NCBI RefSeq assembly: GCF_030294985.1
Contig: NZ_AP024718.1
Coordinates: 1,751,001 to 1,815,000, forward strand
Direction of reading: 5' to 3'
DNA length: 64,000 nucleotides
From: Methylomarinovum tepidoasis
GTDB lineage: Bacteria > Pseudomonadota > Gammaproteobacteria > Methylococcales > Methylothermaceae
The number at the start of each line of letters is the position of its first letter. Position 1 is the stretch's first letter. The notes below the pieces were generated by a model, which ran no database searches, was not told the DNA's origin, and saw only the letters and a list, made by a program, of their open reading frames with translations. Made by a program: the position numbers and the translations under genes. Below, one piece after another: positions 11,950-15,657 of the stretch.

Positions 11950-12615
11950 ATGCTGCGTTTTCAGGGGGTCGGCAAGCGCTATCCGGGCAGCGGCGAGATT
12001 CTGAAAGGACTCGATCTGACGGTCGGACGCGGTGACATGGCCTTCGTCACCGGCCATTCCGGAGCCGGCAAGAGCACGCTTCTCAAGCTGGCGGCCCTCA
12101 TCGAACGGCCCAGCCGCGGCCGCATCTTCCTCAACGACCGCGATCTGACCCGGCTGCCGCCCCGGAGCGTGCCCTACCTGCGCCGCCGCCTCGGGCTGAT
12201 CTTCCAGGACTACCGCCTGCTTTACGACCGCAGCGTGTTCGACAACGTCGCCCTGCCGCTTCAGATCGCCGGATACGCGCCGGAAGAGGTCGAGCGCCGC
12301 ACCCGGGCGGCCCTGGCCAAGGTGGGTCTGGCCGGCTGGGAACGGCGCCGGCCGGTCACCCTCTCCGGGGGCGAACAACAGCGGGTCGGCATCGCCCGGG
12401 CCATCGTCACCCGCCCCCCCTTGATCCTGGCCGACGAGCCGACCGGCAATCTGGACCCGGACCTGTCCCAGGAGATCTTCGCCATGTTCCGCGATTTCAA
12501 CCGGGTCGGGGTGACTTTTCTGATCGCCAGTCACGACCAGGCGCTGGTGGAACGCTTCGCCAGCCGCTGGTTCCACCTCGAGCAGGGCCGTGTCGTCGAA
12601 GTGGGAGGGAGGTGA
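11950..12615 (+). CDS. ftsE: Cell division ATP-binding protein FtsE
   Basis: 221-residue ABC ATPase with Walker [10 protein letters not shown] near residue 35, Q-loop LIFQDYRLL, signature LSGGEQQR near 138, Walker [12 protein letters not shown] and a His switch ASHDQ. Length and sequence fit FtsE, which works with FtsX at the septum to activate peptidoglycan hydrolases. It starts four bases after the ctaA-ftsY stop, so it is translated from the same mRNA. Confidence 0.95.
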
Positions 12616-12619
12616 GGCG

Positions 12620-13540
12620 GTGGCGCTGAAGACTTACCTGCGTCTGCACCGCCAGGCCTTGCTTTCCAGTCTGGAGGACTTGTGGCGGGCGCCGTGGATG
12701 ACGGCGGTCACGATCGGCGTCATCGCGGTTACCCTGGTGCTGCCTTTGAGCTTCCATCTCACCTTGTCCCAGGCGCAGCGTTTGGGTGGCGCTTTCGGTT
12801 CCGGCCGGCAGGTGACGCTGTATCTGCAGCCGGATCTGCCCGCGGAGAAGGCGCAAAGTCTGGCGGCGCGTCTGCGGCAGGAGGCGGCGGTGGCGGAAGT
12901 CCACTTGATCGGCAAGGACGAGGCCCTGGCCCAGTTGCGCGAGGCGGGCGATTTCGCCGCGGCCCTGGACTGGCTGCCCGACAACCCGCTGCCGGCGGTC
13001 ATCGAGGTGACGCCGAAGCCGGCCTGGAGCGAGGAGGCCCGCCTTGCCGGGCTGATCCAGCGCTGGCGCCGGTGGCCCGGCGTCGAGCAGATCCAATGGA
13101 ATCAGTCCTGGTTGCGGCGTTTCCGGGCCTGGCTGACCCTGACCCGGCACGCTGCGCTGGCGCTGGGGGCGGTTCTGTCGTTGGCGGTGGTGCTGGTGGT
13201 GGGCAACACTGTCCGCCTGGAATTGGAAGAACATCATGAAGCGATCGAGGTGATGGGCCTGCTGGGAGCCACTCCCGGTTTCATCCGCCGCCCGTTCCTG
13301 TATTCCGGGTTCTGGCTCGGTTTCCTCGGCGGCGGTGCGGCGCTCGCTGGCGTTTTCCTACTGTATCGGTTGCTGTATCCCTATGTCGTCGAACTGGCGC
13401 GCCTCTACGGCAGCCGCTTCGAGCCGCACTTCTTCTCCTTGGGTGAAATCCTCGGGATCTGGCTGGCCGTGTGCCTGCTGACGACGGCCGCCGCCGCGCT
13501 GGTGGTCAGCCGTCATCTGTGGCGGCTGTTTCGCCGATAA
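12620..13540 (+). CDS. ftsX: Cell division protein FtsX
   Basis: 306 residues from GTG 12620, chosen because a strong SD (GGGAGGGAGGTG, 12603-12613) precedes it; the frame is open for ten more codons inside ftsE. Topology fits FtsX: cytoplasmic N-terminus, helix 1 about residues 27-50, a large periplasmic loop, then three helices in the C-terminal half. NTVRLELEEHHEAIEVMGLLGA is the family segment before helix 3 (quoted in two parts: NTVRLELEEHHEAI and EVMGLLGA). It completes the ftsY-ftsE-ftsX order known from enterobacteria. Confidence 0.93.
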   Translation: MALKTYLRLHRQALLSSLEDLWRAPWMTAVTIGVIAVTLVLPLSFHLTLSQAQRLGGAFGSGRQVTLYLQPDLPAEKAQSLAARLRQEAAVAEVHLIGKDEALAQLREAGDFAAALDWLPDNPLPAVIEVTPKPAWSEEARLAGLIQRWRRWPGVEQIQWNQSWLRRFRAWLTLTRHAALALGAVLSLAVVLVVGNTVRLELEEHHEAIEVMGLLGATPGFIRRPFLYSGFWLGFLGGGAALAGVFLLYRLLYPYVVELARLYGSRFEPHFFSLGEILGIWLAVCLLTTAAAALVVSRHLWRLFRR

Positions 13541-13628
13541 ATCCCGCACCTTTAGTGGTTTAATATCGCAACAGTTTGAATTTCAAATAGTTTTGTGGCG
13601 ATATATAACCATAGAAAATGTATTGTTT

Positions 13629-13670
13629 TTGATCTAGGTCAAAAAAACCCAATAACGGATGGGGTAATCT
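13629..13670 (+). promoter_or_regulatory. FNR/Anr-like box with class II promoter ahead of pmoC
   Basis: TTGATCTAGGTCAA at 13629-13642 matches the FNR/Anr consensus TTGAT-N4-ATCAA at nine of ten positions. A -10-like TAATCT follows at 13665-13670. A start site seven bases further on (13677) would put the box centre exactly at -41.5, the class II activator position. The region 13541-13713 is otherwise AT-rich and holds no gene. Confidence 0.6.
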
Positions 13671-13713
13671 TCGTTCCGCCTGTCATAACAACGAAACGTT
13701 AAGGAGGTTACTG

Positions 13714-14550
13714 ATGGCAGCTACATCTGCTGGTGTCTCCGCACAAGCGGAAGCACCTTTGTTGAATACCCGATGGCTTGCGTTCGCCTTCGCGATCTAC
13801 ACCATCCTGTATTCCTGGGTGGTGTGGTACGAGAGGGTTTACGGGTGGCAAGCCGGCCTGGACTCTTTTGCACCAGAGTTCGAAACTTATTGGATGAACT
13901 TCCTCTACACCGAGATCGTGGTGGAGGTTGTCATCGCCTCTCTGCTGTGGGGCTACCTGTGGCGTACCCGTCCCCGTGATCTGGACAAGATCGCCGGCAC
14001 TCGGGAGGAGCTGCGCCGCAACTTCACCCATCTTGTCTGGCTGTTCGCCTATGCCTACTCCATCTACTGGGGTGCGAGCTTCTTCACCGAACAGGACGGC
14101 ACCTGGCATCAGACCATCGTGCGGGACACCGACTTCACGCCGAGCCATATCATCGAGTTCTATGGTTCGTATCCGGTGTACATCATCACGGGTTTCGGCG
14201 CCTTCATCTATGCCCATACCCGGTTGCCCTACTTTGACTATACGAAGAAGGGGCTGTCGCTGCCGTACCTGATCTCGGTGGTGGGTCCGTTCATGATCGT
14301 TCCCAACGTCGGTCTGAACGAGTGGGGTCATACCTTCTGGTTCATGGAAGAGCTGTTCGTCGCTCCGCTGCACTATGGTTTCGTCTTCTTCGGTTGGTTC
14401 GCTCTGGGAATCCTGGGAGTCTGGCTGCAGACCCTCGCCAGCATTCTGAACCTGATCGGCAAACCGCTGTGCGGCGAGATCTACGACGCGGCTGTCGCCC
14501 GCATCGGAGCTGACCAGGCTCAGTGGGCGGATGACGTCCTGGAGGATTGA
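13714..14550 (+). CDS. pmoC: Particulate methane monooxygenase subunit C (stand-alone copy)
   Basis: 278 residues, full length, closely matching type I methanotroph PmoC in WMNFLYTEIVVE, RRNFTHLVWLFAYA, TPSHIIEFY and VGLNEWGHTFWFMEELF. The metal site is kept: Asp128, His132 and His145 have the spacing of the Methylococcus ligands (D-x3-H-x12-H). PmoC is one of three membrane subunits that oxidise methane to methanol. The strong SD AAGGAGG sits nine bases before the ATG. Neither pmoA nor pmoB is adjacent; the neighbours are ftsX and rpoH, so this is an orphan pmoC. It has its own regulatory region and terminator, suggesting independent expression. Confidence 0.96.
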   Translation: MAATSAGVSAQAEAPLLNTRWLAFAFAIYTILYSWVVWYERVYGWQAGLDSFAPEFETYWMNFLYTEIVVEVVIASLLWGYLWRTRPRDLDKIAGTREELRRNFTHLVWLFAYAYSIYWGASFFTEQDGTWHQTIVRDTDFTPSHIIEFYGSYPVYIITGFGAFIYAHTRLPYFDYTKKGLSLPYLISVVGPFMIVPNVGLNEWGHTFWFMEELFVAPLHYGFVFFGWFALGILGVWLQTLASILNLIGKPLCGEIYDAAVARIGADQAQWADDVLED

Positions 14551-14629: not shown

Positions 14630-14664
14630 CCTTACGTAGCCATTGAATTGCCTCTTTTTTGGGG

Positions 14665-14689
14665 ACCGCCCTTCGGGGCGGTTTTTTTT
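14665..14689 (+). terminator. Intrinsic terminator after pmoC
   Basis: Perfect 7-bp stem (14665-14671 with 14676-14682) on a TTCG tetraloop, followed by seven T residues at 14683-14689. Confidence 0.9.
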
Positions 14690-14702: not shown

Positions 14703-14730
14703 GAACTTTCCAAAAAGCTAGCACTCTCTC
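14703..14730 (+). promoter_or_regulatory. sigmaE-like promoter upstream of rpoH
   Basis: GAACTT at 14703-14708, a 16-base spacer, then TCTCTC at 14725-14730. This resembles the sigmaE promoter of E. coli rpoH (GAACTT-N16-TCTGAT). The -10 match is partial, so the call is tentative. The element overlaps the CIRCE operator. Confidence 0.4.
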
Positions 14731-14744
14731 TTTGGGAGTGCTAA
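14718..14744 (+). promoter_or_regulatory. CIRCE operator (HrcA-binding site) upstream of rpoH
   Basis: CTAGCACTC-N9-GAGTGCTAA matches the CIRCE consensus TTAGCACTC-N9-GAGTGCTAA at 17 of 18 arm positions with the canonical 9-base spacer. It ends 49 bases before the rpoH ATG. CIRCE is the operator of the heat-shock repressor HrcA, usually found at groESL or dnaK. Confidence 0.88.

Positions 14745-14793: not shown

Positions 14794-15657
<864 letters not shown>

Follow-up and report, generated by a model that had tools for sequence, protein, structure and literature searches.

The window examined here is a 64,000-nucleotide stretch of the Methylomarinovum tepidoasis chromosome (RefSeq assembly GCF_030294985.1, contig NZ_AP024718.1, positions 1,751,001 to 1,815,000 of the forward strand); feature coordinates below are those of the window unless a contig is named. 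An orphan pmoC encoding 278 amino acids (13714..14550, plus strand; Pfam AmoC, E = 7e-116, 386 bits) lies between ftsX (12590..13540, plus strand; NCBIfam FtsX_Gneg, E = 9e-89) and rpoH, the gene for sigma-32 (14794..15657, plus strand; NCBIfam rpoH_proteo, E = 6.5e-120), and inspection of the downstream region found no pmoA behind it. A terminator-like intrinsic hairpin (14661..14686, plus strand) follows the gene, but shuffled sequence gives 1.5 such hairpins for the one found. Directly before rpoH lies a CIRCE-like inverted repeat, CTAGCACTC-N9-GAGTGCTA (14718..14743), kept in the relatives G001, G005 and G006; this HrcA-type element suggests that HrcA may regulate the heat-shock sigma factor.

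The source genome (G000) consists of a 2,421,873-base chromosome and a 20.5-kb second replicon and carries four pmoC copies: two in operons (C1:579552 and 2353969, both minus strand) and two orphans, one adjoining yacG (904751, minus strand) and the window copy. Strain IN45 has been described as carrying a pair of pmoCAB clusters together with two pmoC orphans (PMC10950024); the sections of that paper bearing on these genes state nothing about pmoC regulation. Membership of the AmoC family plus retention of the conserved motifs was taken as the criterion for a PmoC and was met: aligned with solved PmoC, the window protein retains EQDGTWH, SHIIEFY and NEWGH, which we take to contain the ligands of the CuC and CuD copper sites of pMMO.

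Upstream of the orphan, an FNR-type box, TTGATCTAGGTCAA (13629..13642, plus strand; centre 13635.5), was identified by inspection, scans and alignment, and agrees with the FNR consensus TTGATnnnnATCAA at nine of ten positions. Exactly 22 nt 3' of the box, the distance expected of a class II promoter, the sequence and alignment give a -10-like hexamer, TAATCT (13665..13670, plus strand); this hexamer predicts a transcription start near 13677 (plus strand), which would place the box centre at -41.5. The -35 position reads AAAAAA, meeting the criterion of a weak or absent -35 element, no sigma-70 promoter independent of an activator passed the scan of the region, and a Shine-Dalgarno sequence, AAGGAGG, is present at 13701..13707 (plus strand). 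An earlier note, made from sequence alone, had claimed a nine-of-ten box before an orphan pmoC and class II geometry with TAATCT; the first claim held in full, and the second held as a matter of spacing, the start being unmapped. The geometry fits FNR activation in E. coli, where the site lies at -41.5 +/- 4 in 19 of the 23 FNR-activated promoters that have been mapped (narK at -41.5, fnrS at -42.5; PMC3688515). Beside the box, sequence and alignment also gave an imperfect inverted repeat, ACCAT-N9-ATTGT (13608..13626). The form ACCAT-N9-ATGGT occurs just upstream of the box twice in G005 and once in G006 (L013, L010) and is degenerate in G000; it could conceivably be the site of a second, unidentified regulator.

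One rival reading treats the box as a chance or decayed motif, with pmoC expression being constitutive or driven by a different promoter. In favour of this reading, TTGATC could act as a poor -35 element, and one-mismatch FNR sites in the window are near chance frequency (three seen, 1.3 expected). The stricter pattern TTGATNNNNRTCAA was found at seven places in the 2.44 Mb genome and at none with the reversed control. Conservation was assessed by a best-box scan of the regions upstream of about 135 distinct Methylococcales pmoC copies. Only four boxes combine a score of 9/10 or better with a position at -83 to -85 from the ATG, and each of the four precedes an orphan pmoC from the family Methylothermaceae. 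These are TTGATCTAGGTCAA at -85 in G000, TTGATCTGGGTCAA at -85 in the closest relative, G001 (2.69 Mb), TTGATCCAGATCAA at -84 in G005 and TTGATGTTGATCAA at -83 in G006; two of the four match the consensus perfectly, so that the criterion of a site close to TTGATnnnnATCAA is met at 9/10 here and at 9 to 10/10 in the relatives. In each, a -10-like hexamer (TAATCT, TAGATT, TAGAAT and TACCCT, respectively) lies exactly 22 nt past the box, and the -41.5 geometry thus fits in four species, with the start unmapped. The sequence between and around the two elements has diverged in the alignment. The four encoded proteins form one clade (support 100/99). Because sequence, position and the 22-nt distance to the hexamer are all conserved in four species, the box is unlikely to be chance; together with the family-wide pattern counts given below, this leaves the chance-motif reading very unlikely. 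The weakness of the -10 hexamers (TAATCT here, TACCCT in G006) is a point against an FNR promoter.

No pmoCAB operon in the scan had a box scoring 9/10 or better close to the gene; the operons' three 9/10 matches lie at -221 to -238. None of the Methylococcaceae orphans examined had such a box near -84. In the six other family genomes a box before pmoC was not found; several of these are fragmentary or without that orphan, and its absence there therefore means little. Two Methylococcaceae orphans (L026 and L195) have CTGATnnnnATCAG palindromes ahead of them; these were rejected, being far upstream and without a convincing class II -10-like hexamer. These perfect palindromes, CTGATCTGGATCAG and CTGATCGGGATCAG, precede divergent orphan pmoC genes at about -181 (L026) and about -195 (L195).

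The second orphan pmoC, adjoining yacG, is preceded by a sigma-E-type promoter, GGAACTT-N15/16-GTC, in five genomes (L115, at G000:C1:904679-905500, and L101, L096, L117 and L112); in the tree its protein groups with the operon copies of its own genome. Nitrosomonas europaea has a comparable singleton, amoC3, which encodes a C subunit away from the xmoCAB operon and is regarded as serving special conditions. Reported to be under sigma-E control, amoC3 belongs to the sigma-E stress response; its counterpart here is the sigma-E-type orphan, whereas the window orphan has an FNR box instead. A further rival would make the window orphan a stress subunit like AmoC3, under an envelope-stress or heat-shock sigma factor. 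The gene does adjoin rpoH with its CIRCE-like element, an arrangement found 3' of the FNR-box orphan in all four genomes, and a sigma-E-type promoter is indeed present at the second orphan. Against this, no sigma-E-like sequence was seen at the window orphan, so that the AmoC3-like criterion is not met, and both the CIRCE-like element and the terminator lie downstream of it. We regard this rival as very unlikely, ranking below even the chance-motif reading. The occurrence of FNR-type and sigma-E-type orphans in the same genomes suggests a division of labour in which the PmoC copies are used under different conditions. In Methylococcus capsulatus and other Methylococcaceae, orphan pmoC3 is likewise an extra single pmoC of unsettled role, with activation, neutral duplication or ammonia oxidation proposed (cited in PMC4688376).

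Of the checks offered in the earlier note, two were run: for an fnr/anr gene in this genome and for the same box before the orphan pmoC of relatives. The second was positive at the same place in three relatives, as given above; the first was positive too. An FNR homologue is encoded at C1:1942843-1943550 (minus strand), with CHNCGFSTVC and SYC supplying all four cluster cysteines; its top match among solved structures is the FNR-type regulator of 5cvr/5e44 and related entries, and its best NCBIfam match is PRK11161 Fnr at 204 bits, under the cut-off of 228. FNR was found in all ten family genomes, as a copy without its N-terminus in G004 and as an N-terminal fragment in G006, and the four-cysteine criterion (CxxCx5C plus SYC) was met in the source genome and seven family relatives. 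The nine family FNRs that cover the recognition helix (L127-L135) carry LALATVSR, with VSG in one, placing alanine at the position of E. coli Glu209. The ExxSR criterion is thus not met (A-T-V-S-R), with the serine and arginine retained except for the arginine in that one, while nearly all other aligned Methylococcales FNRs have ETVSR. Glu209 of FNR is a base-contacting residue. Since the PRK11161 score falls under cut-off and ExxSR is not met, the protein is described here as an FNR homologue that works like FNR and not as a certified member. The change of Glu209 to Ala was not foreseen by the earlier note and leaves a real, unexplained uncertainty about binding specificity.

A class II pattern, TTGAYNNNNRTCAA-N20..23-TANNNT, was searched in the ten family genomes with the reversed pattern as control, giving 44 matches against four. 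The matches include the four orphan pmoC, two classic low-oxygen targets, narK (G003, G005, G009) and bacteriohemerythrin (G003, G005, G008, G009), the putative small RNA locus ahead of nqrA in eight genomes, and, in G003 and G008, a short ORF with a superoxide dismutase-like ORF behind it. Taken with the E. coli geometry, the excess over control and the low-oxygen targets speak for a functional pattern tied to FNR in this family, notwithstanding Ala209. A short membrane protein of unknown function (MATQDKEKDYFWHIIAAVV...) also lies behind an FNR-type promoter in G003, G005, G008 and probably G007 (L276, L301, L295, L259). As an FNR target, gnd (6-phosphogluconate dehydrogenase) was rejected: its box is perfect in G000 and G001 but stands 17 nt from a -10-like hexamer, lies within a larger inverted repeat and is not retained in G006, G003 or G008. 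The gnd palindromes are at L126 1501 (G000) and L225 1201 (G001).

The box could instead be read by another Crp/Fnr protein, such as an NO-sensing regulator of the DNR type, the signal then being NO or nitrite and not low oxygen. DNR-type proteins use the same TTGAT-type half-sites. G000 encodes two further Crp/Fnr proteins (L006, L007), strain IN45 makes N2O from nitrate (PMC10950024), and the loss of Glu209 from the family FNR favours a different reader. Against this, a search of G001, a genome with the box, gave only FNR and one distant match and not L006, L007 has a CRP-like SREMAGR helix, and the four-cysteine-type FNR is the only one of these proteins common to all ten family genomes. 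A different reader is accordingly judged unlikely. M. caldicuralii, which we take to be the boxed genome G001, has been described as lacking hemerythrin and denitrification enzymes (PMC10950024), a point against an FNR promoter.

The preferred reading is that 13629-13677 is a class II FNR-dependent promoter and that the orphan pmoC is activated by FNR. The box, its spacing and conservation, the clade, the FNR gene and the regulon pattern are shown, and because the conserved box and spacing coincide with the clade, an FNR homologue and a pattern exceeding its control 44 to 4 with low-oxygen targets, we consider activation likely, in the absence of any transcript, mapped start or binding data. 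FNR binding, activation, the response to oxygen and assembly into pMMO are inferred. In the proposed mechanism, FNR would gain its [4Fe-4S] cluster and dimerise as oxygen falls, the dimer would bind TTGATCTAGGTCAA centred at -41.5 and recruit sigma-70 RNA polymerase to a promoter with a poor -35 element, and the stand-alone pmoC would be switched on. The orphan isoform, which has kept the copper-ligand residues and diverged from the operon copies, would presumably join PmoA and PmoB in an enzyme suited to oxygen-poor conditions. The suggestion in the earlier note that this subunit is made under low oxygen is supported as a strong inference, without measurement. The putative promoter resembles E. 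coli class II FNR promoters (narK, narGHJI, dmsABC, fnrS) in having a box close to TTGATnnnnATCAA, with a predicted centre near -41.5, a weak -35 and a four-cysteine FNR; it differs in that the target is a subunit of the oxygen-consuming methane monooxygenase and that the family FNR has Ala at position 209.

At seven positions (L32, P87, D89, G151, V155, V196 and L241) the four FNR-type orphans show fixed differences from the ten other family copies. G151 and V155 lie just after the copper-ligand histidine of the SH motif, and V196 lies six residues before the asparagine of NEWGH. The operon copies carry leucine at the G151 and V196 positions, and a larger residue is therefore replaced by a smaller one in the FNR-type orphan. 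That this change in size alters oxygen handling is possible and remains speculation.

Some FNR-type promoters are followed by no gene but by a terminator within about 100 nt; these are described as putative small RNAs, no RNA having been detected. Like enterobacterial FnrS (box at -42.5; PMC3688515), they would be short RNAs driven by an FNR box near -42; they are unrelated to it in sequence, and their candidate targets are pmoC genes. Rfam searches of these loci gave nothing above gathering, the only match being L20_leader at 28.6 bits, and the FnrS covariance model criterion was not met. Putative sRNA A lies before nqrA in G001, G002, G003, G005, G006, G007, G008 and G009 (loci L263, L279, L267, L268, L260, L261, L294 and L297). 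Its core, TTTCAGCCATTTATCCTCTGGGAAGGG, is nearly invariant and complementary to the leader of the sigma-E orphan pmoC; a BLAST DNA search did not find it in G000, an uncontrolled negative. Putative sRNA B, about 66 nt with the architecture TTGATCCACATCAA-N21-TATAAT and a terminator, lies beside rplI in both Methylomarinovum genomes (G000:C1:390935, L271 and L308; G001:C1:276427, L254). Both contain CAGCCAT, the complement of AUGGCUG, and the first predicted hairpin of sRNA B has the loop AGCCAUC.

Full-length duplex energies did not separate pmoC from a GC-rich background and were abandoned as a test; pairing was judged by start-region and core-only tests instead. The sRNA A core paired with the start region of the sigma-E orphan at -26 to -32 kcal/mol in G001, G003, G006 and G007, exceeding all 64 background start regions, and more weakly in G002 (-21.6, 3/64); against shuffles it beat nearly all. 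By start-region energy, operon pmoC and the FNR-type orphan were not special targets of sRNA A. For sRNA B, G000 has just four occurrences of the 11-mer ATGGCTGCAAC, at both operon pmoC starts, at the sigma-E orphan start and as antisense in sRNA B; G001 has it at three pmoC starts, in sRNA B and at two further sites. Among 80 other start regions, perfect complementarity to sRNA B reaches 9 nt at most. Contiguous pairing is 6 nt for the FNR-type orphan against 11-13 nt for the other pmoC starts, and pairing energy does not separate this orphan from the operons (-24.3 vs -22.4), so that any selectivity of sRNA B rests on contiguous pairing only. The pairing was noticed post hoc, and these statistics are therefore indicative only. 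Escape of the FNR-type orphan from sRNA B by synonymous recoding (ATGGCAGCT vs ATGGCTGCA) is true of contiguous pairing and fails for energy, and is not claimed.

Since the two putative RNAs behind FNR-type promoters contain stretches antisense to pmoC starts, FNR may, with less certainty than the promoter itself, exchange PmoC isoforms. In this possible extension of the FNR-promoter explanation, which is not exclusive with it, FNR would turn on the orphan pmoC together with small RNAs acting to prevent the sigma-E orphan, and perhaps pmoCAB, from being translated, and the membrane methane monooxygenase would, speculatively, be rebuilt with a low-oxygen C subunit. The sigma-E orphan's ribosome-binding site and start codon are both covered by the conserved segment of A and B, and the pmoCAB start codon also by that of B. 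In support are the pairing of the sRNA A core beyond every background in four genomes and the restriction of ATGGCTGCAAC in G000 to three pmoC starts and sRNA B. A weak parallel comes from N. europaea at low oxygen, where the singleton amoC rose 1.9-fold and the operons fell up to 3.3-fold, changes that were not significant (PMC6967387). Against the extension, no RNA has been detected, sRNA B fails by energy to spare the FNR-type orphan, and sRNA A was not found in G000. The idea in the earlier note of an orphan that remodels PmoC or takes its place is still hypothetical; these observations lend it some new circumstantial support.

The open-access PMC literature searched held nothing joining pmoC, FNR and hypoxia. 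Decades after stand-alone extra pmoC genes were recognised, there is no consensus on what they do; the CuC and CuD copper sites proposed for methane oxidation reside in PmoC. With the conserved FNR-type promoter, low oxygen emerges as a specific condition under which one class of orphan pmoC can be tested, and this likely control is placed in bacteria whose methane oxidation itself needs oxygen. In a deep-sea methanotroph and three relatives, the possibility that the enzyme is rebuilt for low oxygen becomes testable.
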